This document shows, piece by piece, positions 27,644 through 63,226 of a DNA stretch of 64,000 nucleotides; position 1 is the stretch's first letter; each line of letters opens with the position of its first letter. A program made the position numbers and the translations under genes. The DNA lies in the NCBI GenBank assembly GCA_026125895.1, contig JAHCKG010000001.1, positions 124,001-188,000 on the forward strand, in the 5' to 3' direction. The stretch is from Pseudolabrys sp. (GTDB lineage: Bacteria > Pseudomonadota > Alphaproteobacteria > Rhizobiales > Xanthobacteraceae). The notes below the pieces were generated by a model, which saw only the letters and a list, made by a program, of their open reading frames with translations, was not told where the DNA came from and searched no databases.

Positions 27644-27668
27644 ATATCAGCTATAGTTTCCAACTATA
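27644..27668. promoter_or_regulatory. Overlapping dyads upstream of thiolase/DUF35 pair 1
   Basis: ATATCAGCTAT (27644-27654) fits ATARC-W-GYTAT with one mismatch. Overlapping it, TATAGTT (27652-27658) and AACTATA (27662-27668) form a perfect 7-bp dyad. The sites lie about 90-110 bp upstream of the thiolase-like start at 27556. Confidence 0.45.
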
Positions 27669-38708: not shown

Positions 38709-38715
38709 GCGTACC

Positions 38716-40236: not shown

Positions 40237-40285
40237 GACATCCTAATCCGTCAACGAATGGGCCCCGCTGATCTGGTGTCGGCCG

Positions 40286-40314: not shown

Positions 40315-40326
40315 TCCAAACAGCGA

Positions 40327-41934
40327 TTACCGTTGTTGGGTGAAATTCCCGGCAATTCCTGCACGGCTGACCTTGCCCGTGGACGTACGCGGGAGGTCCG
40401 CTTCCGCCATGAAGTGGTAGACGCGGGGGACCTTGTAGCTCGCCAGTTGCTTCTTCATTTCGGTGCGGAGTTCATTTTCCAGCACCTGGACGTCGACGCT
40501 CGCTCGGGCGACGATGAGAGCGCCGACGATTTCGGTTTTGACGGGATCTGGAACAGGCACGACGTAGGCGATCTCGACGCCCGGATGCGCCATGAGCGCC
40601 TCCTCGACTTCGGCGGGAGACACGCTGATGCCGCCCGACTTGATCAGTTCCTTGAGGCGGCCCTTGAAATGCAGGAAGCCGTCTTCGTCGAGCAAGCCCA
40701 GATCGCCCGTCCTGAAAAATCCGTCCTCCGTGAAGGCGGCTGCATTCTTGTCCTGATCCTTGTAGTAGCCAATGGTGACGCGCCCGCGCACCTGGATCTC
40801 GCCGATCTCGCCCGGTTGACAGGGCGCCAGCGTTTCGGGATGGACGATGCGCTGTTCAACGCCCTCGACGGCGCGTCCGACAGTGCTGTGGGCCTTGTCT
40901 CGCGGGTCGAGTCGACCGTCGGTGAGGTTGGTGTTGCCGTAGGTCTCGGTCAGCCCGTAGACGTTGCAGATTTCGGTGGCGCCTAATTCGACGACGCGCC
41001 GGATCTGTTCCGGAGTGCCGACGCAGGCGCCGGATCGCAGCGATGACAGGTCGTATTTAGCGCGGTCGGGATGCTCGAGCATCGCGCCCGCCATGTTGGG
41101 CGAGCCATGATAGACCGTGCATCGCTCTTTCGAGATCAGCCGCAAGGCTTCGCCCGGTTCGAAGAATTCCTGAAGCACCACGGCGCCGGCATGGGTCAGC
41201 GCGTTGAACAGGATGTTTTCGCAGCCAAGGGCCCAGAACATCGAGACAGCGGCCCAGAATCGATCTCCCGGCACGGAGTGCATGCGGTTGCCGAGATGCC
41301 ACATGTTCTCGATCAGCGGATGATGGAGAAGCTGTACGCCTTTCGGCGTCGATGTCGAGCCGGATGTATACAAGAGATAGGCGACATCGGTCGGCGTGAC
41401 TGCGGCGATCATCTCGTTGAGCGCCGATTCGCTGGTTTGCGCGCCGCGTCGCATCGCATCGGCGAAGGAAACGCTGCCGTCGCGGCCGCGGGCTCCGACG
41501 TGAATGAACTGCGTGAGCATCGGCGCGCTTTTGGCCAGCGGCTCGATGCTCGAAAGGATCTCGATATAGTCGTATTTCAGGAAGCTGTCGGCATGGATCA
41601 GCAGCTTCGCGTCCGAGTGGCGAAGAATATACGCCAGCTCCGGGCCGGTGACGTACGTGTTGACGGAAACCATCACCGCGCCGATCGAGCAGATGGCCAG
41701 GTCGGCGACGATCCATTCGACCTTGTTGCCCATGAGGATCGCGACGTGATCGCCGCGACGAATGCCCATCGCCATGAGGGCCTTGCTGAAGGCGCGCACG
41801 TCGGACCAGAGCTGCGTATAGTTATAGCGCCGACTGTCTCCGATGAGGGCGTCGTACTCGCCGTAGCGGGCGGCTTGTTCTGCCAGCAATGCCGGAATGG
41901 TGCGCGCCTTTGGCATGTCGCCGGGATGCGTCAT
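40327..41934 (-). CDS. AMP-forming acyl-CoA synthetase/ligase (paralogue 1)
   Basis: A 535-aa ANL-superfamily ligase: A3 motif YLLYTSGSTSTPKGVQ, VYGLTETYG (A5), FRTGDLGLLDEDGFLHFKGRLKELIKSGG (A7-A8) and the C-terminal Lys in TSTGKVSRAG. It activates a carboxylic acid as acyl-CoA through an acyl-AMP. It is clearly paralogous to the ligase at 50181: both begin MPK-RTIPALL and share HSDA and FLKYDY. Divergent from the LysR gene at 42396, with a perfect GATAGC-A-GCTATC dyad in between. Confidence 0.93.
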   Translation of the reverse strand: MTHPGDMPKARTIPALLAEQAARYGEYDALIGDSRRYNYTQLWSDVRAFSKALMAMGIRRGDHVAILMGNKVEWIVADLAICSIGAVMVSVNTYVTGPELAYILRHSDAKLLIHADSFLKYDYIEILSSIEPLAKSAPMLTQFIHVGARGRDGSVSFADAMRRGAQTSESALNEMIAAVTPTDVAYLLYTSGSTSTPKGVQLLHHPLIENMWHLGNRMHSVPGDRFWAAVSMFWALGCENILFNALTHAGAVVLQEFFEPGEALRLISKERCTVYHGSPNMAGAMLEHPDRAKYDLSSLRSGACVGTPEQIRRVVELGATEICNVYGLTETYGNTNLTDGRLDPRDKAHSTVGRAVEGVEQRIVHPETLAPCQPGEIGEIQVRGRVTIGYYKDQDKNAAAFTEDGFFRTGDLGLLDEDGFLHFKGRLKELIKSGGISVSPAEVEEALMAHPGVEIAYVVPVPDPVKTEIVGALIVARASVDVQVLENELRTEMKKQLASYKVPRVYHFMAEADLPRTSTGKVSRAGIAGNFTQQR

Positions 41935-42395
41935 ATGGGTACAAGTCCTCTTCGGAGACCTGGATTGAAGCGCGAAATACTAGCCGCGTCGCAAGGCGAC
42001 TCAAGCTGCAGAACCTGCTTAGCGATCGATACCGTCGCGGCAGACATCATGAATGAGATAGCAGCTATCCGGGCGATGAGGCTTATCAGTCTATGAAATC
42101 GATTTTAGGGTGCGCAGCTTGTGATTGATAATCCGCGTGCTTCGCGGGCTCATAGCCGACTCTGAGGGTTTGCCGGGCTTTGGCTGCGGTGGCCGACCTC
42201 GAGGACTGGACGCATGCTTGTGCTGTCACTCGCTCTGTCGCGCGACCTCCTCGTTCCGTCTGACGGAATGGAACGGCGGCCCATCATCAGTCGGGTCCCG
42301 AGCCGTACGCATTGCCTACGATAATGGCCCGTGATAATTCCCATATTGGCGTTAGCGCCCAAGCGGCCGGTAAAGGCCGTCCCTGGGAGGGCGTA
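41935..42395. other. Ligase/LysR divergent regulatory region
   Basis: 461 bp with no convincing gene. It holds the dyad at 42057-42069 and the LysR ribosome site GGGAGGG just before 42396. A weak 28-codon in-frame extension of the LysR frame (from 42312) lacks a ribosome site. Confidence 0.5.
42057..42069. promoter_or_regulatory. Perfect dyad GATAGC-A-GCTATC
   Basis: GATAGCAGCTATC is a perfect 6+1+6 dyad, matching ATARC-W-GYTAT exactly. It is 123 bp upstream of the ligase start and in the intergenic region of the LysR gene, the typical place for an LTTR activation or autoregulation site. Confidence 0.6.
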
Positions 42396-43397
42396 TTGGA
42401 ACTGAAGCAACTGGCGTATTTTCTTGCCGTCGCTGAGCATGGTGGCTTTTCAAAAGCCGCGGCCGTCTTGTCCATTGCGCAGCCGGTTCTCTCGCGCCAG
42501 ATCAAGAGTCTCGAAGACGAGCTTGGCATCGATTTGCTGCACCGCAACGGGCGCGGCACATTGATGACCGACGCCGGCGAGCGGCTCGCCGAACATGCCC
42601 GTTCAATTTTGAATGCCGAAGTGATGATCCGTGCGGATATCGACGCCATGCGCTCGAATCCGACCGGCAAGCTGGCGATCGGGCTGCCGCCGTCCGCCGC
42701 TCCCGTGTTGTCGGCCCCGCTAGTTCGCCGTTTTCGCGAGACCTATCCGCAAGTCAAGCTGAGGGTGCAGGAGGGCTATAACGGCCACGTTCTCGAGTGG
42801 CTCTCCAAGGGGCGGATCGATGTTGCCGTGCTCTATGACGCGCCGCGCACGTCGACGCTCATCACCGAGCCCCTTATCGAGGAGGAATTGTTCCTGATCG
42901 GTTCGGCCCGCGCCACTCCGGAACAGCTTCGGATTGGCGGCGTCGGAGTGAGCATGCTCGGCGAATTGCCGCTGATATTGCCGTCGCATCCGCACGGCAT
43001 CCGCGCCCTCGTCGAGAATCGGCTGGCGAAAGTTGGCGTCGTCCCTTCGGTGGAATGCGAAATCGACAGCCTGAGTACGACCCTTCAGCTTGTCGAGCAG
43101 GGCGTCGGCTATGCGGTGCTGCCTTACGCGAGCGTGATCAGCAGAGTTCAGGCCGGCCAGGTCGTGATCATGCCGATTGTCGGAGCCCGTCTGTACCGGC
43201 AACTCGTGCTCGCCACATCGACGCATCGTCCTGTGACCCAGGCAACGCGCTCTCTCGCCAAAGCGGTGATCCAGCTCGTGCGCGATCTCGTCGATGAAGG
43301 CGTGTGGATGCCGAAGGGGCAATCGCCTGTGGCCGTGGATGTGTCCGACGGACAGCATCGCGCGAAGGGAAAGTTGCTGATTGATGACGTACGCTGA
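42396..43397 (+). CDS. LysR-family transcriptional regulator (candidate master regulator of the catabolic block)
   Basis: A 333-aa LTTR: LELKQLAYFLAVAEHGGFSK, AAAVLSIAQPVLSRQIKSLE, DELGIDLLHRNGRGTLMTDA form the DNA-binding domain, followed by a CbnR/BenM-like effector domain (GKLAIGLPPSAAPVLSAPLV ... VQEGYNGHVLEWLSKGRIDVAVLYD). The TTG at 42396 is preferred because GGGAGGG lies 5 nt upstream and the conserved domain starts at once. The upstream ATG codons lack a ribosome site. It sits between the divergent ligase and the DUF35/thiolase-like operon. Confidence 0.92.
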   Translation: MELKQLAYFLAVAEHGGFSKAAAVLSIAQPVLSRQIKSLEDELGIDLLHRNGRGTLMTDAGERLAEHARSILNAEVMIRADIDAMRSNPTGKLAIGLPPSAAPVLSAPLVRRFRETYPQVKLRVQEGYNGHVLEWLSKGRIDVAVLYDAPRTSTLITEPLIEEELFLIGSARATPEQLRIGGVGVSMLGELPLILPSHPHGIRALVENRLAKVGVVPSVECEIDSLSTTLQLVEQGVGYAVLPYASVISRVQAGQVVIMPIVGARLYRQLVLATSTHRPVTQATRSLAKAVIQLVRDLVDEGVWMPKGQSPVAVDVSDGQHRAKGKLLIDDVR

Positions 43398-43431
43398 GGC
43401 GCGAATTTCAATATCCGAAAACGGCCGGCGT

Positions 43432-43442
43432 ATAACTGTTAT
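43432..43442. promoter_or_regulatory. Dyad ATAAC-T-GTTAT upstream of DUF35/thiolase pair 2
   Basis: ATAACTGTTAT is a perfect 5+1+5 dyad matching ATARC-W-GYTAT, 97 bp before the DUF35 start at 43540 and 35 bp after the LysR stop. Confidence 0.55.
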
Positions 43443-43539
43443 CAGAGCTCGCTATCTATCTCCCTGACAATGCAGACGATATCGTCGTGCTCGACGTGCG
43501 CCTTTTCGGTGCGCGTGCTGTTCTCCGCCGGAGGCTCAG

Positions 43540-43959
43540 ATGCCTTACCTGCCCGACGGGGCGCCGCTGCCGCAGGCGACTCCGGACGATAGTCCATATT
43601 GGGACGCGCATGCGCGCAGGGAGTTGCGCATTCAATGCTGCGCGGATTGTGGCACGTTCCGTCATCCGCCCGGCCCGTTGTGCGCGAACTGCGGAAGCAG
43701 CCGGGTCAATTGGACGCAGGTGTCCGGCAAGGGCAAGATTTTTTCTTACACCGTCGCTCACTACGCGACGCATCCGGCCCTAAAGCAATCGGTGCCTTAC
43801 AACGTCGCCGTCGTCATGCTCGAGGATGCGGGCGACGTCCGGATTGTCTCCAACGTCGTCGATGCGTCGCCGGACGAGATGCGTATTGGCATGAAAGTCG
43901 AGTTGTTCTGGGACGCAGTGTCGGAAGGCGGCTATCTGCCGCGTTTCCGAAAGGCATGA
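43540..43959 (+). CDS. DUF35 zinc-ribbon/OB-fold protein (pair 2)
   Basis: A 139-aa protein: an N-terminal helix with DSPYWDAHARRELRIQ, zinc ribbon CCADCGTFRHPPGPLCANCG (four Cys) and OB fold from VNWTQVSGKGKIFSYTVAHY onward. It is the expected non-catalytic or substrate-binding partner of the following thiolase-like protein. The stop overlaps that gene's ATG (ATGA at 43956-43959). First gene of an operon continuing through the SMP-30 enzyme and a TRAP transporter. Confidence 0.92.
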   Translation: MPYLPDGAPLPQATPDDSPYWDAHARRELRIQCCADCGTFRHPPGPLCANCGSSRVNWTQVSGKGKIFSYTVAHYATHPALKQSVPYNVAVVMLEDAGDVRIVSNVVDASPDEMRIGMKVELFWDAVSEGGYLPRFRKA

Positions 43960-45173
43960 GTGCAGAAGAAGAATCGATGACCAGTGATACCAGCGAAAAG
44001 GTCGCGGCCTTCGCCGACAGTTGCGCCATCGTCGGCATCGGCGCAACGGAGTTTGCCAAACGCGGCGGCATTCCGGACAAGTCCGAGTTCCAACTCTGCT
44101 GCGAAGCGATCCGGCTCGCGGCCGAGGATGCTGGCCTCGACATTCACGACATCGACGGCTTTTGCTCTTACGGGGCCGAGCGTCATGAGCCGGTCCTGCT
44201 GCAGGTCGCGCTCGGCATCCCGGAAATAAGATTCTCCAATCTGGTGTGGGGCGCAGGTGGCGGCGGGTGCACGGCCGCGGTGATGGACGCCGCGCTCGCC
44301 GTGCATGCCGGCATCTGCAAGCACGTCGTCGTTTATCGCTCGCTTTGTCAGGGCCAGTATCACCGCTATGGGCAGTACAATGCGGCGGCAGTGGGCGGCA
44401 GTTACATGGCGCCCTTCGGACTCATGAGTCCGGGCCAGAAAACCGCGCTGACGTTCCGTCGCCACATGTATGTCTACGGCACCCCGGCCGAAGCTCTGGG
44501 CCACATCGCTGTCACGTTTCGTGAGCATGCGCAGCGCAATCCCGCTGCGCTCATGTACGGCAAGCCGATGACGCTGGACGATTACGCCAAGGCCCGCATG
44601 ATCGCCGATCCGTTCCGCCTGTTCGACTGCTGTCTGGAAACCGACGGCGCCGCGGCGATCGTCGTCACGTCGAAGGAGCGCGCTCGCGATATGCGGCAGA
44701 AGCCGGTTCGTATCCTGGCGGCGGTCCAAGCCAGCGGCAAAGGCTGGGGCATGGGGCCCATGGGCTCCAACAATATGCCGGTCGAGACCTATCACACGAC
44801 CAATGCGCAACCGGTCGCCAAGCATCTGTTCCCGATGGCCGGCATCAGTCCGCAGGATCTCGATTGTGCGCAGATCTACGACGCGTTCTCGGGCATCGTC
44901 ATCATGGCGCTCGAGGACTACGGCGTCTGCGCCCCCGGCGAAGCAGCCGACTTCATCATGAAGGGCAACCTCCGGCATGACGGCGGCCAACTGCCGACGA
45001 ACACCGCCGGCGGCCTGTTGTCAGAAGGCTATTTGCAGGGCTTCAACCTGATCCCCGAAGCGGTGCGCCAGATGCGCGGCACCTCGCTGACGCAGGTGGC
45101 CGACGCCGAAACCTGCCTTGTCACTTCCGGCGGCGGCGGCGGGCACAAGAGCGCGATGATCGTGGCGGCCTAG
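43956..45173 (+). CDS. Thiolase-like protein lacking the nucleophilic Cys (pair 2)
   Basis: A 405-aa SCP2-thiolase-family protein. The nucleophile region reads WGAGGGGCTAAVMDAALAVH; aligned by the following AG, the acyl-Cys position is Gly, and the nearby Cys is three residues off. CAQIYDAFSGIVIMALEDYG keeps the YD-F motif. The GHP block is LSEGYLQG, with Tyr instead of His. The C-terminal CxG is absent (VTSGGGGGHK). It is therefore not a canonical thiolase. ATG 43956 overlaps the DUF35 stop; ATG 43977 is an alternative. Confidence 0.9.
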   Translation: MSAEEESMTSDTSEKVAAFADSCAIVGIGATEFAKRGGIPDKSEFQLCCEAIRLAAEDAGLDIHDIDGFCSYGAERHEPVLLQVALGIPEIRFSNLVWGAGGGGCTAAVMDAALAVHAGICKHVVVYRSLCQGQYHRYGQYNAAAVGGSYMAPFGLMSPGQKTALTFRRHMYVYGTPAEALGHIAVTFREHAQRNPAALMYGKPMTLDDYAKARMIADPFRLFDCCLETDGAAAIVVTSKERARDMRQKPVRILAAVQASGKGWGMGPMGSNNMPVETYHTTNAQPVAKHLFPMAGISPQDLDCAQIYDAFSGIVIMALEDYGVCAPGEAADFIMKGNLRHDGGQLPTNTAGGLLSEGYLQGFNLIPEAVRQMRGTSLTQVADAETCLVTSGGGGGHKSAMIVAA

Positions 45174-45187
45174 CGAAGGGAGCGACC

Positions 45188-46057
45188 ATGACAGACGTTC
45201 AAGTCCTGAGCTCTGCCGTCTCGAGCCTCGGCGAGTCACCGACCTGGTCCGCGGACGAGAAGGCGTTGTACTGGGTCGATCTCGATAACCGCACGATCTG
45301 GCGGCACGACACTGAGCGCAATGAGACGCGCTTCTACAAGATGAGCGGGATTCCGACGGCGCTCGCTCTGCGCCGGCGCGGCGGTTTGCTCGTCGCTCTC
45401 CGGAACGGCTTCGCCTTTCTCGATACCGAGACCGGCGAGGAGCGTCGCATCGAGACCAAGGTCGATTTTTCACGCGAACGCTTCAACGACGGCAAATGCG
45501 ACCGCCGCGGCCGCTTCTTCGTCGGCAGCCTGGACAAGACCTGGAAGGACCCGATCGGCGGACTGTGGCGCCTCGATCCGGATCTGTCGCTGCATCGCGT
45601 GGACGACGGCATTTTGCTCGGCAACGGCATCGCCTTCAGCCCCGACGACAAGACGATGTATTTCGCCGACTCGCGGCCCGGCCCCGTCTATGCCTACGAC
45701 TACGACATCGAGACGGGGACGCCGTCGAACCGCCGGCTGCACCTCGATTTCCACGGCAAGGAAGCGCACCCGGACGGATGCACCGTCGATGCGGAAGGTT
45801 GCTTGTGGATCGCCGAGATGGGCACGGGCTCCGTGGGCCGTTACAGCGCCGACGGCCGGCGCCTCAGCGGCATCGATCTGCCGACAACGCGCGTGACGTC
45901 AATTGCCTTTGGCGGCCTCGACTACCGGACCCTCTTCATCACCTCGATGCGATACGGGCTCGATGAGGCGCAGCTGGCGAAGCAGCCCGATGCCGGCCGT
46001 ACGTTCTTCGCGCGGGTTGATGCGGCCGGCTTGCCGGAGACGAAATTTGCCGGGTGA
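45188..46057 (+). CDS. SMP-30/gluconolactonase-family lactone hydrolase
   Basis: A 289-aa six-bladed beta-propeller: LGESPTWSADEKALYWVDLD (metal Glu), RFNDGKCDRRGRFFVGSLDK (metal Asn), LGNGIAFSPDDKTMYFADSR and HPDGCTVDAEGCLWIAEMGT (metal Asn/Asp region). These are the regucalcin/gluconolactonase signatures. It hydrolyses a lactone, probably one made or imported by this operon. AGCGAAGGGAGCG precedes the ATG. It lies 14 bp after the thiolase-like gene. Confidence 0.93.
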   Translation: MTDVQVLSSAVSSLGESPTWSADEKALYWVDLDNRTIWRHDTERNETRFYKMSGIPTALALRRRGGLLVALRNGFAFLDTETGEERRIETKVDFSRERFNDGKCDRRGRFFVGSLDKTWKDPIGGLWRLDPDLSLHRVDDGILLGNGIAFSPDDKTMYFADSRPGPVYAYDYDIETGTPSNRRLHLDFHGKEAHPDGCTVDAEGCLWIAEMGTGSVGRYSADGRRLSGIDLPTTRVTSIAFGGLDYRTLFITSMRYGLDEAQLAKQPDAGRTFFARVDAAGLPETKFAG

Positions 46058-46094
46058 CGGGCGTCAAGAAAACAGGACAGCAGGAGGAAGCATC

Positions 46095-47111
46095 TTGAAG
46101 AAGCACGCGCTAGCAGCGGCGGTGGCCGCGTTGACTCTCGGCTCCGTCACCGCTCATGCGGAGCAGTTGAAGGTCGCTCATATCTCCGTCGAAAGCTCGC
46201 CGCTGTCGGTCGCCGACCGGCATTTCGCCAACGAGGTTAAGCGGCTGACCAACGGCGATTTGACCATGCGCTTCTTCTGGAGCGGTTCGCTCGGCAGCGG
46301 GGAGGAGATCATCCACCTGATTGCCGGCGGCGCCATTCCGGCGGGCGTCACGGCGCCGGTCTACTATCCGTCCGAACTGCCGATCGATGCCGTCACCAAC
46401 AGCCTGCCCTTCACCTTCGCCAGTGCGGGCGATGCGATGGACGCCAAGCGCGAGATCGCCAAGACCGCGCCGGCCTTGGCCGAGTACAAGCGGATGGGCG
46501 TGTATCCGCTCAATCATCATGGCCTCGGCATGCTGCATCTCGTTTGCAGCAAGAAGGCGGAGACGCTCGCGGAACTCAAGGGCTTCCGGATTCGCTCGAA
46601 CGGCTTCTATTGGCCGACGGCCTTCGAATCGATCGGCGTCATTCCGGTCTCCGTCCCCTTCAACGAGATGTACGAGTCGCTGCAGCGCGGCGTCGTCGAC
46701 TGCACCTTCACGACGTGGGCCGGTGCGTCGGCCGGCCGGCTCGGCGAAGTCGCCAAATACTGGATCGACATCAACCTTGGCGCTCTCACCGGCCCCAGCT
46801 TCTATGTGCCCTACAGCAAGTACAAGGAAGGCGGCTGGAGTCCGGAGCGGATCAAGGCCGTCGACGAGGCCGCCGAGATCGCGTTCCAGGCCGAGAAGAA
46901 GAGCATCGAAGAGCTGGATGCCAAGAAGCTGGCGGAGGCGACCGCCAAGGGCGTCGAACTCGTGCGCTTCAAGGACAATGACAAGCTCAAGACGGCCATC
47001 CCCGACATGATCGCGCTCTGGGGCAAGAAGGAAACCGGGGCCGGCGTCTCGCCCGAGGCCGCCAAGGCGATCATGGACGTCGTCTACCGCTACAGCACCA
47101 ACCGGAAATAA
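46095..47111 (+). CDS. dctP: TRAP transporter substrate-binding protein (DctP family)
   Basis: A 338-aa protein with a signal peptide (KKHALAAAVAALTLGSVTAH, cut before EQLK) and TRAP fold: VKRLTNGDLTMRFFWSGSLG, and LAELKGFRIRSNGFYWPTAF with the carboxylate-binding Arg, then YESLQRGVVDCTFTTWAG. The start is TTG: CAGGAGGAAG sits 5 nt upstream, and longer open frame upstream covers the SMP-30 gene antisense-style. Second TRAP system in the window and only distantly similar to the first. Confidence 0.92.
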   Translation: MKKHALAAAVAALTLGSVTAHAEQLKVAHISVESSPLSVADRHFANEVKRLTNGDLTMRFFWSGSLGSGEEIIHLIAGGAIPAGVTAPVYYPSELPIDAVTNSLPFTFASAGDAMDAKREIAKTAPALAEYKRMGVYPLNHHGLGMLHLVCSKKAETLAELKGFRIRSNGFYWPTAFESIGVIPVSVPFNEMYESLQRGVVDCTFTTWAGASAGRLGEVAKYWIDINLGALTGPSFYVPYSKYKEGGWSPERIKAVDEAAEIAFQAEKKSIEELDAKKLAEATAKGVELVRFKDNDKLKTAIPDMIALWGKKETGAGVSPEAAKAIMDVVYRYSTNRK

Positions 47112-47207
47112 CAGGGCGAGCATCGCCAGGCGCCCGCGGCATTTTGAGGGCCGGCGGGCGCCCAGCCGCCGGCCCTCGCGCCGGAAGCACCACAGGAGAA
47201 GCCCGTC

Positions 47208-47723
47208 TTGCTCGCGCGTCTTCAGATCTCAGCCGAACGTCTGTCGTCGGTCCTGCTCTATGTATCCGCAGTGGCGATCGCCCTGATCGCCATTGCCGGC
47301 GCGGCGGACGCGATCGGCTCGGCGGTCTTCAACAGGCCGATATCCGGCGTGTTCGAACTGACCGGCCTGTCCCTGGTCGTCATCATCTTCATGGCGCAGC
47401 CCTATGTCACGCTCAGCGGCTCGCACATCGAGCTCGACCTGTTCCGGTTCGATCGAAAATCCGTGCTCGGGCGGACGCGGCATTTCCTGACCTCGCTTTT
47501 CGGCGCCATCTGTTACGCCGCCATCTTCATCGCGTCCTGGCGAGGCTTCACCGAGGCATGGCATGTCCGCGAGGCAACCGCCGGCATCTACGCCTTTCCG
47601 GTCTATCCGGTGAAATTGATACTCGTGATCGGCGCATTCCTGGCCTTCTGCATGTCGGTGCTGAGCTTTTTCGTTCGTTCCGAAGCAGCCAAGGTCGCCG
47701 AAACATTTGAAGAGGGCCTGTGA
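47208..47723 (+). CDS. dctQ: TRAP transporter small permease (DctQ family)
   Basis: A 171-aa four-helix membrane protein: FNRPISGVFELTGLSLVVIIFMAQP is the DctQ helix-2 block, with SGSHIELDLF following. The start is TTG with CAGGAGAAG upstream. Its stop overlaps the dctM start. Confidence 0.9.
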   Translation: MLARLQISAERLSSVLLYVSAVAIALIAIAGAADAIGSAVFNRPISGVFELTGLSLVVIIFMAQPYVTLSGSHIELDLFRFDRKSVLGRTRHFLTSLFGAICYAAIFIASWRGFTEAWHVREATAGIYAFPVYPVKLILVIGAFLAFCMSVLSFFVRSEAAKVAETFEEGL

Positions 47724-49042
47724 TGGAGCTCGATCCGACGCTGTTCGCGCTCGTCGCGTTCATGATCATCTTCGGCCTGATCAGTTTCGGCATCCCGGTG
47801 GCGCTGGCCATCATGACCGTGACACTGGTCAGCATGTATCTGCTGGTCGGCGGACCTTTCATCCTCGCCACGGTGCGTACCATCACGTTCTCGATATCGA
47901 GCAGTTACTCCTTCGCCGTCATACCGATGTTCGTCCTGATGGGAGAGATCGCGGGGAGGACGCGGATCATCGCCGACCTCTATCAAACCTGCTATCGCTT
48001 CATTTCGGGTATCCGGGGCGGCGTCTATAACGCCACGGTCCTGGCGTCCGCCGGCTTTGCCGCCATTTCGGGTTCGACGATCGTCAACTCGGCTATCTTC
48101 ACGCGTGTGGCGCTGCCGGAGATCGAGCGTCTCGGCTATCACAAGGGCTTCGGTGTCGGTTGCATCGCCGCAGCCGGCGCCCTGGCGGCGATGATCCCGC
48201 CGTCGCTGACGATGGTGCTGTTCGGCATCCTCACTGAAACATCCATCGGCGCCTTGCTCATCGCCGGCATTTTGCCCGGGTTGCTCACGGCGGCGGTGCT
48301 GATGCTGACAGTGACCATATCCGTCAAGGTGAAGCCAGACCTTGCTCCTCCCAGCACGGACAAGTTCTCGAACGAAGAAAAGCTTCGCGGCCTGCTCGAT
48401 ATCTGGCCGGCCATGCTTTTGATCGTCGTCGTTCTCGGTGGCATCTATTCCGGTCTGGTGTCGCCATCGGCCGCCGGCACGGTTGGCGCCGTCGGTGCAG
48501 TTCTTATTGGTGTGATGAAGCGGCGCATGACCTGGCCGCTTTTCATCGCCGCGCTCCGGCGTACGGCGACGATCTCGGCATCGATCTTCATCATTCTCGT
48601 CGCCGGCTTGCTGTTCTCGCGTCTGCTGCTGTTTTACGGATCGGTCTCCGACCTGACGGATCTGCTGAACGCTGGAGGCTTTACCTCATTCCAGTTCATG
48701 GCCTGCGTGATCCTCGGCTACTTCATCTTCGGCATGTTCATGGATCCGGTGCCGATGCTGGTGATCACGCTGCCGTTTCTATTCCCGACCGTTCAGGCCC
48801 TGGGAATCAATCCGATCTGGTTCGGCATTATCATCGTCAAGCTGATCGAGATCGCCGCGATCACGCCGCCAATCGGCATCAATCTTTTCGCGGTGATGGC
48901 GGCATCGGACGGCCGGGTGAAGGCGAGCGAGCTCTTCAAGGGGGTGCAGCCCTTCGTGGTCGCCGAACTCGTCGTACTGGGCATCCTGCTGGCTTTCCCG
49001 ACGATCTGCACCTATTTGCCCGAGAAAATGATGGGACACTAA
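47723..49042 (+). CDS. dctM: TRAP transporter large permease (DctM family)
   Basis: A 439-aa permease: FMIIFGLISFGIPVALAIMT, SSYSFAVIPMFVLMGEIAGR, ASAGFAAISGSTIVNSAIFT, AMIPPSLTMVLFGILTE and AAITPPIGINLFAVMAASD are DctM blocks. ATG 47723 overlaps the dctQ stop (TGATG); GTG 47720 is the alternative. It closes the operon DUF35-thiolase-SMP30-dctPQM. Confidence 0.93.
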   Translation: MELDPTLFALVAFMIIFGLISFGIPVALAIMTVTLVSMYLLVGGPFILATVRTITFSISSSYSFAVIPMFVLMGEIAGRTRIIADLYQTCYRFISGIRGGVYNATVLASAGFAAISGSTIVNSAIFTRVALPEIERLGYHKGFGVGCIAAAGALAAMIPPSLTMVLFGILTETSIGALLIAGILPGLLTAAVLMLTVTISVKVKPDLAPPSTDKFSNEEKLRGLLDIWPAMLLIVVVLGGIYSGLVSPSAAGTVGAVGAVLIGVMKRRMTWPLFIAALRRTATISASIFIILVAGLLFSRLLLFYGSVSDLTDLLNAGGFTSFQFMACVILGYFIFGMFMDPVPMLVITLPFLFPTVQALGINPIWFGIIIVKLIEIAAITPPIGINLFAVMAASDGRVKASELFKGVQPFVVAELVVLGILLAFPTICTYLPEKMMGH

Positions 49043-49098
49043 TTTCCCGGAATGCCACTAGCGCCGTATTGACGTTTCGCCGCGGCGGCAGAGGGACC

Positions 49099-49109
49099 AT
49101 AACAGCTAT
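49099..49109. promoter_or_regulatory. Dyad ATAAC-A-GCTAT upstream of amidohydrolase/ligase operon
   Basis: ATAACAGCTAT fits ATARC-W-GYTAT with arms that pair except for one position. It is 99 bp before the amidohydrolase start at 49209 and 57 bp after the dctM stop. Confidence 0.5.
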
Positions 49110-49208
49110 ACGCGATGTAACAGCATTTCGTCGTTGAAACGGAAATGGACATCGCGTCATAAATTTACTGCCCGGACGTGGGCGGGCGTGAGGGGCGGGT
49201 CCGTACCA

Positions 49209-50177
49209 GTGCTCACAGTCGATTCACACGCGCATATTTGGGGCGCTGGCTTCGTTCCGGCTGCATTCTTTCGGCGATCGGCGGAAGCGTGGGCGGCGAA
49301 GTCTCCCGATCGCACGCCGGGTATGATCATGCCGAAGCTCCTGACCGGGCTCGTGGATCAGGATGGTGACGACTTCATTGCCAATATGGATCGGGCTGGC
49401 GTGCATGCCAGCATGATCATGATGATCGATGTCGGTGCGCCCGTTTTCGGCGAGGAGCCCGAGACGCCACTTGAGCGGCAAATCGAATTCTATGGCGAGG
49501 TTCAAAGGCGGCATCGCGGGCGGCTCTACAGCCACGCCTATGTCGATCGCCGCCGCCCGGACCATGTTGCCTTGCTGCGCCGCGCCATCGTCGACCATGG
49601 GCTGGTCGGGATCGGCGAACTCACGCCAGACGGTGTGCCGGTGTCGCATGCCGAATTCTACCCGACGATGAAGCTGGCGGCCGAACATGGCGTCCCGGTG
49701 CAGATTCACACGCGCGCGGGCGTCTGGACCGATCTTGAGGCGTTGGATTACTCCGAGGCCAATCCCGTTCACCCGGTTCATGTCGCCGATCTCGCTCGCA
49801 AGCTACCTGATCTAAAGATAATTCTTTGCCACGCTGGCTATTCGAAGTGGTGGCAGGTCGCAGCGGAAGCAATCGCCGATCTGCCGAACTGCGTGCTCGA
49901 CATCTCAAACTGGAACGAAAGCTTCGCAGATGATCCAGGCGACATGGTTGCCAGGATCGCCACGTGGCGTTCGATCGTCGGCATCGATCGCATCTTGTTC
50001 GCTTCGGATCAGCCTTCCGGCCTCCGATTCACTGGTGAACGTTCGCACCTTCCCGCCTGGGCCGATTTCATCCGCAATCTTCCCGAGATCGGATGGCAGT
50101 GGGGCTATACGTTCACGGAAGAAGAAGCTGCGAAGATTGCCGGGAAGAATGCGCTGCGATTCTATGGACTAGGTTGA
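49209..50177 (+). CDS. Amidohydrolase family protein (ACMSD/PDC-hydrolase-like TIM barrel)
   Basis: A 322-aa metal-dependent enzyme: LTVDSHAHIWGAGFVPAAFF (HxH metal site at the N-terminus), VQIHTRAGVW, KIILCHAGYSKWWQV (metal His) and ILFASDQPSGLRF (metal Asp). Members decarboxylate or hydrolyse ring-derived acids. GTG 49209 is chosen because the conserved VDSHAHIWG starts there; GTG 49188 is also possible. It lies 3 bp before the ligase gene and is probably co-transcribed with everything to 53407. Confidence 0.88.
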   Translation: MLTVDSHAHIWGAGFVPAAFFRRSAEAWAAKSPDRTPGMIMPKLLTGLVDQDGDDFIANMDRAGVHASMIMMIDVGAPVFGEEPETPLERQIEFYGEVQRRHRGRLYSHAYVDRRRPDHVALLRRAIVDHGLVGIGELTPDGVPVSHAEFYPTMKLAAEHGVPVQIHTRAGVWTDLEALDYSEANPVHPVHVADLARKLPDLKIILCHAGYSKWWQVAAEAIADLPNCVLDISNWNESFADDPGDMVARIATWRSIVGIDRILFASDQPSGLRFTGERSHLPAWADFIRNLPEIGWQWGYTFTEEEAAKIAGKNALRFYGLG

Positions 50178-50180
50178 GCG

Positions 50181-51770
50181 ATGCCGATGGAAATGCCGAA
50201 GAGCCGCACCATCCCCGCCTTGCTGCAAGAGCAGGCGGAAAGGTATGGCGATCTCGAAGCGCTCGTCGGCGGGACGCAGCGTTACACCTATCGCAGCTTG
50301 CGTGAGAGGGTGCGAGCCTTCGCCAAAGGGCTGTCCGCTCTCGGGGTCCGCAAGGGCAGTCGCGTCGCCATTCTGATGGGCAACAAGCCGGAGTGGGTGA
50401 TTGCCGATCTCGCCATATGCTCGCTCGGCGCCGTCATGATTGCGGTGAACACCTGGGTCACGACGCGCGAACTGCACTACATCCTCGACCATTCGGATGC
50501 CGATACGCTGATCTTCGCCGGCAAGTTCCTCAAGTACGACTATTCGCGCATGCTCGAGGAGATGGAGCCGCACGCGAAGAGCCTGCCCAAGCTCAAACAA
50601 ATCATCCACGTCGGAGATGGGTACCGCGACAGTGTTCCATTCGACCGGGTCTATGAGCTAGGCAAGAGCGTGCCCGACGACACGATCGATGCCGCGGCGG
50701 CGGCGGTCGAACCCCAGGACGTCGCCTATGTGCTCTACACATCAGGTTCGACGTCGACGCCGAAGGGTGCGCAGATGCAGCACTACGGCATCATCGAAAA
50801 CCCGTTCTACATCGGCAACCGAATGCACGTGGAGCCGGGCGACCGCTGCTGGCTGGCAGTTTCCCTGTTCTGGGGATTGGGCTGTGAGAACGCGCTTCCG
50901 AACATGTACACGCATGGCGGCTGCGTCATCCTCCAGGAGCACTTCGAATCGGGTGAAGCACTGCGGCTTATCGAAGAAGAGCGGTGCACGATCTATTACG
51001 GCATGCCGAACATGTCGCAGGCCATGTACGATCATCCGGACCGCAAGAAGCGTGACCTGAGCAGCTTGCGGTCGGGCGGCCAGCTCGGCACGCTGTCGCA
51101 ATTCAAGGTGCTGGTCGATCTCGGCGTGAGAGAAGCCTGTCACATTTACGGTCTCACCGAGACGTTCGGCAACTGCAACGTGTCGGATGGACGGCTCGAT
51201 CCTCGCGACAAGGTCTTTGCGACACTCGGCCGTCCGCTGGACGGCGTCATCCAGCGCATCGCCAATCCGGAGACGAATGAGCCATTGCCGACGGGGCAAA
51301 TCGGGGAAGTGCAGGTCAAGCGCTACGTGACGCTCGGTTACTACAAGGACGAGGACAAGAATCGCGAGGCCTTCACGCCTGACGGTTATTTCCGGACCGG
51401 CGACCTCGGCTTTTACGATGAAGGCGGCTATCTGCACTTTCGCGGCCGCATCAAAGAGACTATCAAGACGGGTGGCTTGAATGTTGCGCCGGCGGAGATC
51501 GAGACGATCCTCACGCAGATACCGGGCGTTAGCCTCGCATATGTGGTCGGAATCCCCGACCCTGTGCGCGATGAAGTGGTCGGCGCCGTGATCGTGCCGC
51601 AGGGCGAACCTGCGGCGGACATGGCGGCAAAGCTGTCCGCCGAATTGAGCAAGCAGCTTTCGAAATTCAAGATTCCTCAGCACTACCGTTTCGTGAGCGA
51701 GGCGGATTTGCCTCTGACGAAGAGCGGCAAGGTGCAAAAGAACCGACTGGTTGAGCTCTTCAAAAGCTGA
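50181..51770 (+). CDS. AMP-forming acyl-CoA synthetase/ligase (paralogue 2)
   Basis: A 529-aa ANL ligase with YVLYTSGSTSTPKGAQMQHY (A3), IYGLTETFGNC (A5), YFRTGDLGFYDEGGYLHFRG then RIKETIKTGG (A7-A8) and catalytic Lys in SGKVQKNR. It aligns end to end with the ligase at 40327, including the unusual FLKYDY segment and the STSTPKG variant, so the two are duplicates with related substrates. It is coupled to a thiolase-like gene and a DUF35 gene downstream. Confidence 0.94.
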   Translation: MPMEMPKSRTIPALLQEQAERYGDLEALVGGTQRYTYRSLRERVRAFAKGLSALGVRKGSRVAILMGNKPEWVIADLAICSLGAVMIAVNTWVTTRELHYILDHSDADTLIFAGKFLKYDYSRMLEEMEPHAKSLPKLKQIIHVGDGYRDSVPFDRVYELGKSVPDDTIDAAAAAVEPQDVAYVLYTSGSTSTPKGAQMQHYGIIENPFYIGNRMHVEPGDRCWLAVSLFWGLGCENALPNMYTHGGCVILQEHFESGEALRLIEEERCTIYYGMPNMSQAMYDHPDRKKRDLSSLRSGGQLGTLSQFKVLVDLGVREACHIYGLTETFGNCNVSDGRLDPRDKVFATLGRPLDGVIQRIANPETNEPLPTGQIGEVQVKRYVTLGYYKDEDKNREAFTPDGYFRTGDLGFYDEGGYLHFRGRIKETIKTGGLNVAPAEIETILTQIPGVSLAYVVGIPDPVRDEVVGAVIVPQGEPAADMAAKLSAELSKQLSKFKIPQHYRFVSEADLPLTKSGKVQKNRLVELFKS

Positions 51771-51810
51771 AGCGAAAGCACATCGTTTACGTGCAGAGCC
51801 GGGATCGAGA

Positions 51811-52977
51811 ATGAAGGTGAATGCTGCTATCGCGGGCGTCGGCGCATCGGAATTCGGGCGCAATCTGCCCGACAGTCAGGTCGGCTTGGCCGCCAAGGCG
51901 CTCAAGCAGGCACTCGACGATTCCGGGCTGAAGCGTGAAGACATAGACGGCGTTTCGATCCATCTCGGGTGGCCTCTCGGCCTCGACTACGATCGGGTGG
52001 CCGAGGGGTTGGGCCTCAATATTCGCTACGTGAGCCAGACCTGGTTGCATGGCCGGTTCGTCTGTAGTGCGCTGATGAACGCCGCTTTGGCCGTTTCGGC
52101 CGGGCTCGCCAATGTCGTCGCCTGCGTCACCGCACCCAGCTTCAACCGCGAGCGCGAATTGTTGGGCGGGCCGGGCGATCTCGAGGGCAATCGCGAGGAG
52201 GGCGGAACGCATGGCGAAAGCCCACCTTACGGTTTGACTTCGCCGGCGGGCGGATCGGCCCTCGCGATGCAGCGCTACATGGCGCTCTACGGCGTGACCA
52301 GCGAGAAGCTGGCGGCGGTGCCGATATCGATCCGCAAGCATGCTCTGCGCAATCCCGATGCGCTCATGAAGAAGGAGTTGACGCTCGACGATTACATGGC
52401 GTCGCGAATGATCATCGATCCGCTGCGGCTATTCGACTGCTGCTTGATCACCGACGGGGCGATCGTGACGCTGGTGACGACGCTCGAGCGGGCGAAGGAT
52501 CTCAAGCAGAAGCCGGTCAAGATTGCCGGCTTCCAGGGTATCCGCTCCGGCAAGGAAGAATTTCAGCACGCGCCGCCAGGACTCGGCATCGCGCAGCAGA
52601 CGACGACGCGCATTCACGCGCGCGATATCGATCAGGAAGTGTTCCGAAGCAGCGGCGTCGCGCGGTCCGACGTGAAGGCGCTTTACACGTATGACGCCTT
52701 TTCACCTCTCGTGCTCTTTACGCTCGAACGCTTCGGCTATTGCGGCGCCGGTGAGGCGACCGATTTCGCCCATGGCGGCGGAATCGCACCGGGAGGCTCG
52801 CTGCCGGTGAACACGAATGGCGGGTTGCTCTCCGAGGCCCACATCGCCGGCTGGAATCACATTCGCGAAATGACGCGGCAAATCCGCGGCACCGCGGGCG
52901 AACGGCAGCTTGCCAATGCCGATGTTCTTCAATGGGGGGCGGCGTGGGGCGATTCCTTCATTCTGACATCGGTATGA
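51811..52977 (+). CDS. Thiolase-like protein lacking the nucleophilic Cys (pair 3)
   Basis: A 388-aa SCP2-thiolase-family protein. The nucleophile region is TWLHGRFVCSALMNAALAVS; aligned to thiolases by the following AG, the catalytic position is Gly, with a Cys four residues on. LYTYDAFSPLVLFTLERFGY keeps YD-F. LSEAHIAGWNHI replaces the GHP block, and the C-terminus is WGAAWGDSF without CxG. ATG 51811 fits the family start and is followed by KVNAAIAGVGASEFG. Order is ligase-thiolase-DUF35, the reverse of pair 2. Confidence 0.9.
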   Translation: MKVNAAIAGVGASEFGRNLPDSQVGLAAKALKQALDDSGLKREDIDGVSIHLGWPLGLDYDRVAEGLGLNIRYVSQTWLHGRFVCSALMNAALAVSAGLANVVACVTAPSFNRERELLGGPGDLEGNREEGGTHGESPPYGLTSPAGGSALAMQRYMALYGVTSEKLAAVPISIRKHALRNPDALMKKELTLDDYMASRMIIDPLRLFDCCLITDGAIVTLVTTLERAKDLKQKPVKIAGFQGIRSGKEEFQHAPPGLGIAQQTTTRIHARDIDQEVFRSSGVARSDVKALYTYDAFSPLVLFTLERFGYCGAGEATDFAHGGGIAPGGSLPVNTNGGLLSEAHIAGWNHIREMTRQIRGTAGERQLANADVLQWGAAWGDSFILTSV

Positions 52978-52987
52978 GGAGGGTGCG

Positions 52988-53407
52988 GTGAGCGGCTCGC
53001 AAAGTCCGAACGAAAAGCCACGGCCCAGGATCGGCCCAGACAGCAGGCCGTTCTGGGAAGGCTGCCGCGCGCATCAGTTGAAGATTCCGTTCTGTGACGA
53101 CTGCGGCAAACCGCACTGGCCGGCGGGTCCGGTCTGTCCTTATTGCCTCTCCGCTCGGCTGCGATGGCGGCAGGTGAGCGGCAAAGGTGTCGTTTCCACC
53201 TTTGTCGTCATTCACAAGGCGTGGTTTCCCGCCTTCGCCAAAGAGGTGCCCTATAACGTCGTCCAGGTCGAATTGGACGAGGGGCCGCGACTGACCGCGA
53301 AGATGATCGGGGTCGCGAACGACCGGATCGCCGTCGGCCAGCGCGTGCAGGCCGATTACGAGGACGTGGACGACGAACTTACCTTGCTGTGTTTCCGCCC
53401 GGCTTGA
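52988..53407 (+). CDS. DUF35 zinc-ribbon/OB-fold protein (pair 3)
   Basis: A 139-aa protein: DSRPFWEGCRAHQLKIP helix, zinc ribbon FCDDCGKPHWPAGPVCPYCL (four Cys) and OB fold beginning LRWRQVSGKGVVSTFVVIHK. GAGGAGGGTGCG precedes the GTG start. It lies 10 bp after the thiolase-like gene and completes pair 3. Sequence is closest in style to the DUF35 of pair 2. Confidence 0.9.
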   Translation: MSGSQSPNEKPRPRIGPDSRPFWEGCRAHQLKIPFCDDCGKPHWPAGPVCPYCLSARLRWRQVSGKGVVSTFVVIHKAWFPAFAKEVPYNVVQVELDEGPRLTAKMIGVANDRIAVGQRVQADYEDVDDELTLLCFRPA

Positions 53408-53449
53408 TCCGGCCGGAGGAGGAATCGTGCGGCGAGTCTCGATTGTTAC

Positions 53450-53462
53450 TATAGCAGCTATA
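53450..53462. promoter_or_regulatory. Perfect dyad TATAGC-A-GCTATA upstream of ABC transporter operon
   Basis: TATAGCAGCTATA is a perfect 6+1+6 dyad that also has the T-N11-A form of LysR-type sites. It lies 175 bp upstream of the ABC permease start and is the best match to ATARC-W-GYTAT in the window. Confidence 0.6.
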
Positions 53463-53636
53463 ACGGCCCCAGCGTTGACGCCACTCGGCGCCACTGGCCT
53501 AGTAATACAACAAGCAGGACGGCCTCGATGCCGACCGCTTGTGTCGAGGAAGCGCAGAACTTCCGGACGATCCAGGGGAGTGTGAAATGATCGCCGTCTC
53601 GCGCCGCGATGCGCCAAGTTGGTTGATCCAGTTTCC

Positions 53637-54590
53637 ATGACGATCTTTCTCGAGAATTTCCTGCAGGTCCTCGCAACCGGCCTCATGGTCGGTTGTCTCT
53701 ATGGCCTGATGTGCGTCGGCCTCGGGATGATCTTCGGCATCATGCGCGTCATCAATTTCGCTCAAGGCGATCTGATGATGCTCGGCATGTATTCGGCCTG
53801 GTACCTGTTCGCCGGCTTCGGCGTCCTTGCCTTCCTCGGCACCTATGTCGGACCGATCTTTGCGGCGATCCTCACCGGGCCGCTGCTCTTCGTGGTCGGT
53901 TACTACATGCACAAGTTCCTCATTGCGCGCGTGACCGGCTACAAGGTCGCCGGCGTAGAGGCGGAGGGGCACTACTCGCAGCTCATCCTCACGCTCGGCA
54001 TCAGCCTGATTCTGCAAAACGGCGGCCTGATCGTTTTCGGCTCCGAGCCGATTTCGATCCGCACGCCGTTGTCGTCGAGCGCCTGGGAGGTCATGCCGTT
54101 CGGCGGCGATTATATCTCCATCTTCGTCAACAAGGCCCGCGCCGTCGGCGCCGTCGTCTCCATCGCGGTCGCGGTCGCGTTGTTCGCCTTCGTCGCGCGC
54201 TCCCGTATCGGCAAGGCGATGCGGGCATCGGCCGATAATCCGGAGGCGGCGCTCTATATGGGCGTGAACGTCGATCAGGCGCACCGCATCGCCTTCGCGC
54301 TCGGCACGGCCGCGACCGCGATCGCGGGCGGGCTTGTCGCGACCTACTTCCCGTTCCAGCCCTATGTCGGCCTCGAGTTCGTGATCGTCATGTATGCCGG
54401 CGTCGTGCTTGGCGGCATCGGGTCGATCAGCGGCGCCTTCTGGGGCGGCATGGTCATCGGCCTCGTCCAGCAGCTCTCGACGCTGATCCTGCCCAATCAG
54501 CTGCAGAACACGGCGATCTTCGTCGTGTTCCTGCTGGTGGTGTTCTTCCGCCCGCAAGGCCTGTTCGGCAAGAACGTGGAGCGCGTGTGA
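53637..54590 (+). CDS. livH: Branched-chain-amino-acid-type ABC transporter permease (LivH family)
   Basis: A 317-aa permease with about eight helices: LMVGCLYGLMCVGLGMIFGIMRVINFAQGDLMMLGMY is the LivH N-terminal signature; GKAMRASADNPEAALYMGVN is the EAA-like cytoplasmic loop. ATG 53637 is used; TTG 53619, six codons earlier, is possible. The stop overlaps the next start (TGATG). In this context the system more likely imports an aromatic or hydroxy acid than an amino acid. Confidence 0.93.
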   Translation: MTIFLENFLQVLATGLMVGCLYGLMCVGLGMIFGIMRVINFAQGDLMMLGMYSAWYLFAGFGVLAFLGTYVGPIFAAILTGPLLFVVGYYMHKFLIARVTGYKVAGVEAEGHYSQLILTLGISLILQNGGLIVFGSEPISIRTPLSSSAWEVMPFGGDYISIFVNKARAVGAVVSIAVAVALFAFVARSRIGKAMRASADNPEAALYMGVNVDQAHRIAFALGTAATAIAGGLVATYFPFQPYVGLEFVIVMYAGVVLGGIGSISGAFWGGMVIGLVQQLSTLILPNQLQNTAIFVVFLLVVFFRPQGLFGKNVERV

Positions 54591-56371
54591 TGGGAGACCG
54601 CGGGCTGTTTTTTCGATCGCTTATCCCCGTCTGCATCTTCTCGGCCGTCTTCCTGGCGCTGATCTTCCTGGTGAAGAACCAGTATTACCAGCTGATGCTG
54701 ACGCTCGTCGCTGTGTGGGCCGTCGTCGGAATTTCGTGGAACATCCTGTCCGGTTATTCGGGCCTCATTTCCTTCGGCCATGCCTCGTTCTTCGGCATCG
54801 GCGCCTATACGGTCGTGCTGGCGCAGATCCACTTCGGCATATCGCCCTGGCTCGGCATCATCGCGGCAGGCGCGCTGGCCGCCGTTGCCGGCTTGCTCAT
54901 CGGTATCGTCACGTTCCCACTGCGCGGGCATTACTTCGCCCTCGCCATGCTCGCCTATCCTCTGGCGCTTCTTTACGTGTTCGAATGGCTCGGCCTGCAG
55001 GAAGTCCCGGTGCCCATGGTGCGCGACAATCCGATCGCGTACATGCAGTTTCCCGACGCTCGCTACAGTTCCGCGTTTGCGCTCGTTTTGTTGATCATCG
55101 CGATCGTGATCTCGCGACTGATCGAGACGTCGCGGTTCGGAATGTCGCTGCTCGCCATCAAGCAGAACGAGCTCGCGGCGGAAGCGGCCGGAATCGAGAC
55201 CCGCAAATGGAAGCTGCGGGCCATCGCCACCTCCAGCGCCATCGCCGGCGTTGTCGGCGGCTTCTATGCGATCATCATGCTCATCGTCACGCCGCAAAGC
55301 GTGTTCGGCATGTTGACGTCGGCGCAGGCGCTGATCGTCACGCTCTTTGGCGGCATCGGAACGGTGTGGGGGCCGGTGATCGGCGCTTCCATTCTCATCC
55401 CGCTGTCCGAAGTGCTGCATGCCGAAATCGGCCAGATCCTGCCGGGCATCCAGGGCGTCGTGTTCGGCCTGGCGATTCTGCTGGTCATGTTTTTCGCGCC
55501 GGAAGGCATCTTCTGGAAGATCCGCGACAAGATGGCGCAAGCCAAGGCGGCCGACAGTGCTGCCGTCGAGGAAGCGCCGCCGATCGTCGCCCCCATGGCC
55601 GCCTTGGCGGCGCCGGAAGGCCGGCAAGAGCGCTTGTCCGGGCCGGTCATTCTCGAGGTCCGCAATGTCTCGAAATCCTTCGGCGGCTTGCGGGCGGTTC
55701 AGGATGTTTCGTTCTCCGTACGAAAGGGCTCCGTCGTCGGCATCATCGGACCGAACGGCGCTGGCAAGACGACGCTGTTCAACCTGCTCAACGGCTTCCA
55801 GAAGCCGGACGACGGTGAAGTCCTGTTCAACGGCGAAAGCCTGCTCGGCCTGCAGCCCAGCGGCGTGTGCAGGAAAGGGATCGGCCGCACATTCCAGGTC
55901 GCGCGGCCGTTCCGCCGACTGTCCATTCTTCAGAACGTCCTGATCGGCGCTTATGTCCGCACGCCGGATGACGCCAAGGCCCGCGAGCATGCCCGCGAGG
56001 CGCTTGCCCAGGTTGGCCTGGGCGGCGACGTCGACCGGCTGGCAGGCGGCCTGACGAGCGTCGAGCAGCGGTTGATGGAGTTGGCCCGCGCGCTCGCCGG
56101 AAACCCCAGCGTGCTGTTCCTCGACGAAATTCTTGCCGGCCTGGGCGGATCCGAGGTGAACCGGGTCATCGCGGTCGTGCGCGAACTGTCCCGCACGGGC
56201 ATCACGATCGTCATCATCGAGCACACCATGCAGGCGATGCTCCGCCTTGCCGACTACTTCATCGTGCTCGACCACGGCGCACTTTTGACGCAAGGCGACC
56301 CGCAAGAAGTGGTTCGCGAGCCGGCGGTCATCGACGCCTATCTCGGAAAAAGGTGGCGCGAGCGTGCTTGA
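54590..56371 (+). CDS. Fused ABC transporter permease and ATPase (LivM-LivG fusion)
   Basis: A 593-aa two-domain protein. Residues about 1-310 are a LivM-type permease (LVAVWAVVGISWNILSGYSGLISFGHASFFGIGAYT ... IETRKWKLRAIATSSAIAG). After an Ala/Glu-rich linker, residues about 345-590 are a LivG-type ATPase: Walker A GPNGAGKTTLFNL, GIGRTFQVARPFRRL, signature LTSVEQRLMELARAL and Walker B VLFLDEILAGLGG. The usual LSGGQ is replaced by LTSVEQ. LivM and LivG are normally separate; this fusion replaces two genes. Confidence 0.93.
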   Translation: MGDRGLFFRSLIPVCIFSAVFLALIFLVKNQYYQLMLTLVAVWAVVGISWNILSGYSGLISFGHASFFGIGAYTVVLAQIHFGISPWLGIIAAGALAAVAGLLIGIVTFPLRGHYFALAMLAYPLALLYVFEWLGLQEVPVPMVRDNPIAYMQFPDARYSSAFALVLLIIAIVISRLIETSRFGMSLLAIKQNELAAEAAGIETRKWKLRAIATSSAIAGVVGGFYAIIMLIVTPQSVFGMLTSAQALIVTLFGGIGTVWGPVIGASILIPLSEVLHAEIGQILPGIQGVVFGLAILLVMFFAPEGIFWKIRDKMAQAKAADSAAVEEAPPIVAPMAALAAPEGRQERLSGPVILEVRNVSKSFGGLRAVQDVSFSVRKGSVVGIIGPNGAGKTTLFNLLNGFQKPDDGEVLFNGESLLGLQPSGVCRKGIGRTFQVARPFRRLSILQNVLIGAYVRTPDDAKAREHAREALAQVGLGGDVDRLAGGLTSVEQRLMELARALAGNPSVLFLDEILAGLGGSEVNRVIAVVRELSRTGITIVIIEHTMQAMLRLADYFIVLDHGALLTQGDPQEVVREPAVIDAYLGKRWRERA

Positions 56372-57071: not shown

Positions 57072-57099
57072 AACGTCACAACGACAGGGGAGGTATAAG

Positions 57100-63215: not shown

Positions 63216-63226
63216 CTAACTGCTAT
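63216..63226. promoter_or_regulatory. Degenerate ATARC-W-GYTAT site upstream of hydroxy-acid dehydrogenase
   Basis: CTAACTGCTAT differs from ATARC-W-GYTAT at the first base and is less symmetric. It lies 119 bp before the gene at 63346, the same distance range as the other copies. Confidence 0.35.

Follow-up and report, generated by a model that had tools for sequence, protein, structure and literature searches.

Eleven-base-pair dyads in a catabolic gene cluster of Pseudolabrys sp. are predicted operators of a LysR-type regulator

In this study, we revisited a stretch of 64,000 nucleotides from Pseudolabrys sp. (contig JAHCKG010000001.1, positions 124,001 to 188,000; the whole stretch is called the window here), in which copies of the dyad ATARCWGYTAT stand before several genes for catabolic enzymes and transporters. 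The question that this locus raises is which protein reads the dyads. An earlier note had described six copies, all of them intergenic and about 90-175 bp upstream of start codons, and had taken them for the regulon of the LysR-type regulator encoded at 42396-43397. Based on sequence comparison, namely on footprints at matching genes in relatives, on the clustering of the motif near lysR and on de novo motif discovery, this reading is very probably right, and we regard the dyads with good confidence as predicted operators of this LysR protein.

All six copies were recovered by a scan of the window, four of them exact (at 42058, 43432, 49099 and 53451) and two with one mismatch (at 27644 and 63216; Table 1). 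The distances to the start codons are 88 bp for a thiolase, 98 bp for a DUF35 protein, 100 bp for an amidohydrolase (GTG at 49209), 120 bp for an FMN-dependent dehydrogenase, 124 bp for acyl-CoA ligase 1 and, by subtraction, 158 bp (TTG at 53619) or 176 bp (ATG at 53637) for LivH, and the range of 88-176 bp is in agreement with the one proposed before. In the source genome assembly (4.52 Mb, 82% complete), exact ATARCWGYTAT is found in four places, with six for the reversed control pattern; all four are in the window, in the 11.4 kb from 42058 to 53461, and all four lie between genes. The exact dyad is thus confined to the cluster, and no exact copy lies within a gene anywhere in the genome; the earlier note had named occurrence inside genes as often as upstream of catabolic operons as an outcome that would speak against its reading. 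The looser pattern ATANCWGNTAT occurs in six places genome-wide, as does its control; five of the six are in the window, and the last adjoins an IS1595 transposase gene. Once a mismatch to ATARCWGYTAT is allowed, the signal is gone: the genome then has 36 places, 7 of them in the window and 29 elsewhere, and the control has 137; among 8 of the 29 that were inspected, 6 are clearly in long coding open reading frames (ORFs) and 2 are ambiguous. The seventh window copy with one mismatch (at 3771, CTAGCTGCTAT) lies within an ORF of uncertain coding status and is probably due to chance. With up to two mismatches, the window holds 19 copies where 11.2 are expected, a modest excess that is matched in 1 of 100 shuffles. 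So small an excess would suit the explanation that the dyads are chance AT-rich words or artefacts of promoter composition; however, this is extremely improbable, since all the exact copies in the genome fall within 11.4 kb, the dyad has conserved places in relatives and such exact sites hardly fit chance.

Conservation was assessed at matching genes. When named genomes were scanned with ligase 2, eight loci were obtained (L076-L083; loci and genomes of relatives are given by L and G numbers). In L076-L081, where the ligase is 66-71% identical, a LysR protein of 57-68% identity is encoded upstream of the amidohydrolase and ligase genes, mostly within about 0.3 kb and in L081 at about 1.5 kb, and ATANCWGNTAT precedes the amidohydrolase gene in all six loci: as exact ATARCWGYTAT in L081, with one mismatch to it in L076, L078, L079 and L080, and with two in L077. 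Two further loci found through LysR, L135 and L133 (the latter of the same genus as L081), have exact ATARCWGYTAT at this place. The expectation that relatives keeping the LysR gene would also keep the sites is borne out for close orthologues: the looser pattern precedes the amidohydrolase in all eight relatives with a close LysR orthologue and the amidohydrolase-ligase pair, but some members of the wider LysR subfamily lack an adjacent motif. In L082 (ligase 55% identical), exact copies precede the ligase gene and a thiolase gene; the lysR gene of this genome, whose product is 46% identical, is within 14 kb of these copies and sits in L174 rather than in the L082 stretch. In L083 (ligase 33%), no motif copy was found in the locus. 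A site also precedes a Liv-type permease gene in six relatives (L078, L079, L080, L135, L170 and L171) and is exact in four of them; L170 belongs to the same genome as L076 and L171 to that of L077, and their permeases were matched to that of the window by type. Additional sites precede CMD-family, MaoC-like (FAS1_DH_region) and thiolase genes, and the slot directly downstream of lysR, filled by the 43432 copy in the window, carries the motif in several relatives ahead of genes that differ from those here. A candidate operator shared by catabolic and transport genes near the regulator and conserved in relatives, as in LysR-type catabolic regulons, is found; at matching genes, this conservation covers two of the six promoters in the window (49099 and 53451).

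The motif also clusters around lysR in whole genomes. LysR relatives were sought in 391 genomes of the family and 397 of the order, of which 16 and 15 match at 1e-80 (own genome counted in each) with 45-62% identity; the set was extended by G055, G028:C38 and G103 (41-43%). Of 26 exact ATARCWGYTAT matches in 11 genomes, 22 are no more than 30 kb from the best match to lysR, with 0.35 expected. This set includes two genomes of one genus (G459 and G774) as well as G103, which was chosen for its clustered motifs; by subtraction, the nine genomes left after removal of G103 and the window's genome have 15 of 19 exact matches within this distance, one of the nine being without a match. For ATAVCWGBTAT the count is 30 of 46 (0.63 expected), though this pattern was widened after the relatives had been inspected and ATARCWGYTAT is the fairer test. 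At least one exact ATARCWGYTAT is present in 106 of 198 genomes of the family, and among the matches listed G103 alone of 14 genomes with multiple hits has a tight cluster; there, a LysR protein of 42% identity is encoded beside a ligase homologue of 57%.

The window LysR has an N-terminal HTH_1 and a C-terminal LysR_substrate domain, both above the Pfam cut-off, which places it in the LysR-type family. Its nearest NCBIfam matches are NAC (173.6 bits; NF008410 cut-off 309) and CynR (166.4 bits; cut-off 277), yet it scores below both cut-offs and was not assigned to either group. Expectation-maximization motif discovery in 350 bp on each side of 40 lysR genes, run without shuffle calibration, gave GcATAaCAG.TAGCA as the top motif, which has the same core as the dyad, and GGCATAACAGcTttC when the loci of the amidohydrolase-ligase type were set aside and the other 30 used alone. 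A strict match to the core is present no further than 300 bp from lysR in 23 of the 40 loci as compared with 1 of 21 other LysR genes (mononucleotide shuffle means 0.40 and 0.26), a result that again argues against chance; these flank counts omit L134 and L175, from the same genome as L081, and L083, which has neither motif nor LysR match. In a tree labelled with a looser form of the motif, the window LysR falls into a clade of nine rows (support 100/97), all motif-positive, and 27 rows of the surrounding 38-row clade (98/95) are also positive; the dyad is conserved alongside LysR among the close orthologues and in a large part of the subfamily around them. On another LysR branch the sites adjacent to lysR are asymmetric, CTANCTGTTAT before the gene and AAAGCTGTTAT after it. 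In L145, two identical copies of ATAACAGCTAT, at 3577 and 3624 and 47 bp apart, lie between Liv-type permease and binding-protein genes.

For most loci LysR was itself the selection criterion, so its presence in all 27 compared loci is largely circular, and a different regulator, either a GntR/FCD protein or one encoded elsewhere, might bind the dyads with LysR as a mere neighbour. Two GntR/FCD regulators are encoded nearby in the window, at 32.7 and 34.3 kb, and LysR sites do not usually take the form of an 11-bp dyad whose centre is fixed. Nevertheless, this alternative is improbable, as a search of L076-L081 at E 1e-10 gave no match to the GntR proteins of the window and the motif lies 42-135 bp upstream of the lysR match in 19 of 40 subfamily loci, and 191 bp upstream in one more (distances to the start of the protein match), with neighbouring genes that vary.

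If LysR is the reader of the dyads, the geometry of the promoters bears on its role. In 39 promoter sites, chosen and oriented by hand, a word that agrees with TTGAC in four or more of its five letters follows the dyad at an offset of 13 bp in six cases, 14 bp in four and 24 bp in six (16 of 39); no offset exceeded 5 in 500 shuffles, a level that is surpassed at offsets 13 and 24 but not at 14 taken by itself. The Liv promoters of relatives have an offset of 13-14 bp in five of six cases, and that of the window also has such a box (Table 1). Offsets 13-14 and 24 differ by about one helical turn and would place the dyad centre 19 or 30 bp upstream of the -35 box, near -55 or -65. For LysR sites, a centre near -65 is the usual one according to a study on BhbR1 (PMC12016517). 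Because the -35-like box stands at set offsets beyond the dyad, the spacing fits LysR as an activator. The copies upstream of lysR in relatives, mostly at 42-135 bp, would in addition let LysR limit its own synthesis, and the 63216 dyad of the window is similar to these sites. It had been proposed that the 42058 dyad is in such an autoregulatory arrangement. This we rejected: no motif was found within 300 bp upstream of the window lysR, and the 42058 dyad is 338 bp from the lysR start. Because this exceeds the distances in relatives, the dyad more likely serves ligase 1 rather than lysR.

Several observations weigh against the assignment of the dyads to LysR. Exact ATARCWGYTAT precedes the amidohydrolase in just three of the eight relatives mentioned above, and 11 rows of the 38-row clade, including three genus-mates (L117-L119), have no motif adjacent to lysR. 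Seven of these 11 have exact ATAVCWGBTAT within 9 kb of lysR, while L117, L119, L131 and L142 have none; in L145-L148 such copies mostly precede Liv-type permease, binding-protein or lactamase-fold genes. In a wider set of 13 genomes, a count that leaves out G121 and G125, only 18 of 68 ATANCWGNTAT places are near lysR, and 17 of the 18 come from G642, G658, G475 and G689. In a Shinella relative (L177; LysR 43.5% identical), 20.9 kb of sequence hold a single copy, with one mismatch. No TTGAC-like box stands at the favoured offsets in 23 of 39 promoters, including four of the six sites in the window, and the Liv promoters in the offset counts are related, so these counts are not independent. 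Finally, T-N11-A, the hallmark of the canonical LysR box, is present in 3 of 35 distinct sites, which is about chance level. A plasmid search for annotated neighbours was unproductive: the Shinella record, which has 4.6 Mb and is filed as a plasmid, carries only 2 annotated features, none in the LysR stretch.

The T-N11-A form, which the earlier note had ascribed to the dyad, is found among the six window copies only in that at 53451, and we discarded it as a description of these sites. A related possibility, compatible with binding by LysR, is that the 11-bp dyad belongs to a larger site of canonical T-N11-A form, the other half of which is too weak to recognise. The arms ATARC and GYTAT have the same form as the arms ATAGC and GTTAT in the sequence protected by BhbR1 of Pigmentiphaga kullae, which is likewise a LysR-type regulator of a catabolic operon; BhbR1 also uses a weaker second site, and the region that it protects runs from -22 to -75 and includes a site of the type that is normally centred near -65 (PMC12016517). 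The sites upstream of lysR, which come from related loci, further show a conserved GTGC at -8 to -5, with up to 1.26 bit. On the other hand, T at -6 is hardly ever paired with A at +6, and in 32 pooled sites, whose inner columns are fixed by the search pattern, the columns 6 to 20 bp off centre do not exceed 0.35 bit, so that a larger site seems rather unlikely. The dyads also differ from the BhbR1 site in that the latter, ATA-N9-TAT, measures 15 bp and has T-N11-A, whereas here the arms are 1 bp apart in 11 bp with the CWG centre fixed. They share TATA-type half-sites with the extended LysR box, CTATA-n9-TATAG with T-n11-A (PMC5002191), but are spaced far shorter and do not conserve T-N11-A. 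Literature searches with the motif strings and ATA-N5-TAT gave no work on a bacterial operator, as judged by titles and the first lines of abstracts, though three papers on bacteria each contain one of the strings a single time; no comparative-genomics paper was found. The spacing ATA-N9-TAT is also read by NAC. That the LysR proteins of one subfamily, present in several alphaproteobacterial families, recognise a compact operator of 11 bp (T-N7-A with a fixed CWG centre), in which ordinary LysR arms stand 4 bp closer together, is a proposal for and against which we see the case as evenly balanced; if true, it would need a seating of the two DNA-binding domains unlike that known for T-N11-A sites.

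According to the model that we favour, LysR would bind the dyad ATA-N-C-W-G-N-TAT and activate the promoters of ligase 1, the DUF35/thiolase pair, the amidohydrolase and ligase 2, and the ABC transporter, and possibly those of thiolase 1 and the FMN-dependent dehydrogenase. Its ligand would probably be an acid of the pathway or its CoA ester, and the target genes would import a carboxylic acid and degrade it via CoA esters. This function is suggested by the gene content, as the cluster appears suited to uptake and CoA-dependent breakdown of a carboxylic acid; besides the genes in Table 1 it contains those for amidohydrolases, TRAP and Tct transporters, an SMP-30-like protein and the FMN-dependent dehydrogenase. 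A literature search by enzyme names gave no pathway for the cluster. Homologues of the 3-hydroxyisobutyrate-dehydrogenase-like protein are present in 22 of the 27 LysR-subfamily loci, the window counted; the minus-strand ORF at 59219-60193 has no Pfam match and was rejected as a shadow of this plus-strand gene.

Table 1. Predicted operators, promoter element and genes of the cluster in the window
Feature	Position	Strand	Remarks
Dyad ATAGCAGCTAT	42058..42068		124 bp upstream of ligase 1
Dyad ATAACTGTTAT	43432..43442		between lysR and DUF35 gene
Dyad ATAACAGCTAT	49099..49109		100 bp upstream of amidohydrolase
Dyad ATAGCAGCTAT	53451..53461		upstream of Liv-type ABC operon
Weaker dyad ATATCAGCTAT	27644..27654		upstream of thiolase (26387-27556, -)
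Weaker dyad CTAACTGCTAT	63216..63226		upstream of FMN-dependent dehydrogenase
TTGACG, -35-like box	53475..53480	+	13 bp after 53451 dyad
Acyl-CoA ligase 1, predicted target	40327..41934	-	Pfam AMP-binding
LysR-type regulator, TTG start, presumed dyad binder	42396..43397	+	Pfam HTH_1, LysR_substrate; relatives beside motif
DUF35 / OB_ChsH2_C protein, predicted target	43540..43959	+	
SCP2-type thiolase partner, start not certain	43956..45173	+	scanned from 43932
Amidohydrolase family 2, predicted target	49209..50177	+	
Acyl-CoA ligase 2	50181..51770	+	
Thiolase (Thiolase_C_1)	51751..52977	+	
DUF35 / OB_ChsH2_C protein	52988..53407	+	
Liv-type ABC operon (permease, permease-ATPase fusion, ATPase, binding protein), predicted target	53619..58329	+	
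3-Hydroxyisobutyrate-dehydrogenase-like protein	59264..60163	+ (from about 59264)	homologues often near lysR in relatives

The TRAP/Tct transporter genes in window 29850-43397 are shared with genus-mates (L118 and L121); the identities range from 67 to 95%, with four of the six reaching at least 90%. The best LysR of these genus-mates is only about 50% identical, and the LysR relatives of 57-68% identity belong to other families. This comparison suggests that the LysR/amidohydrolase/ligase cluster was acquired horizontally.

Taken as a whole, the dyad system is very probably a new instance of the ordinary kind of LysR catabolic regulon, with the compact 11-bp operator as its unusual point. An apparently uncharacterised LysR subfamily is thereby tied to a probable operator and to target genes in many alphaproteobacteria, which may allow other genomes to be searched for the regulon and, via the regulon, for the pathway (two CoA ligases, thiolase/DUF35 pairs, an amidohydrolase and ABC uptake). 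Should nothing beyond the compact operator belong to the site, it would depart from the T-N11-A rule by which LysR sites are sought.

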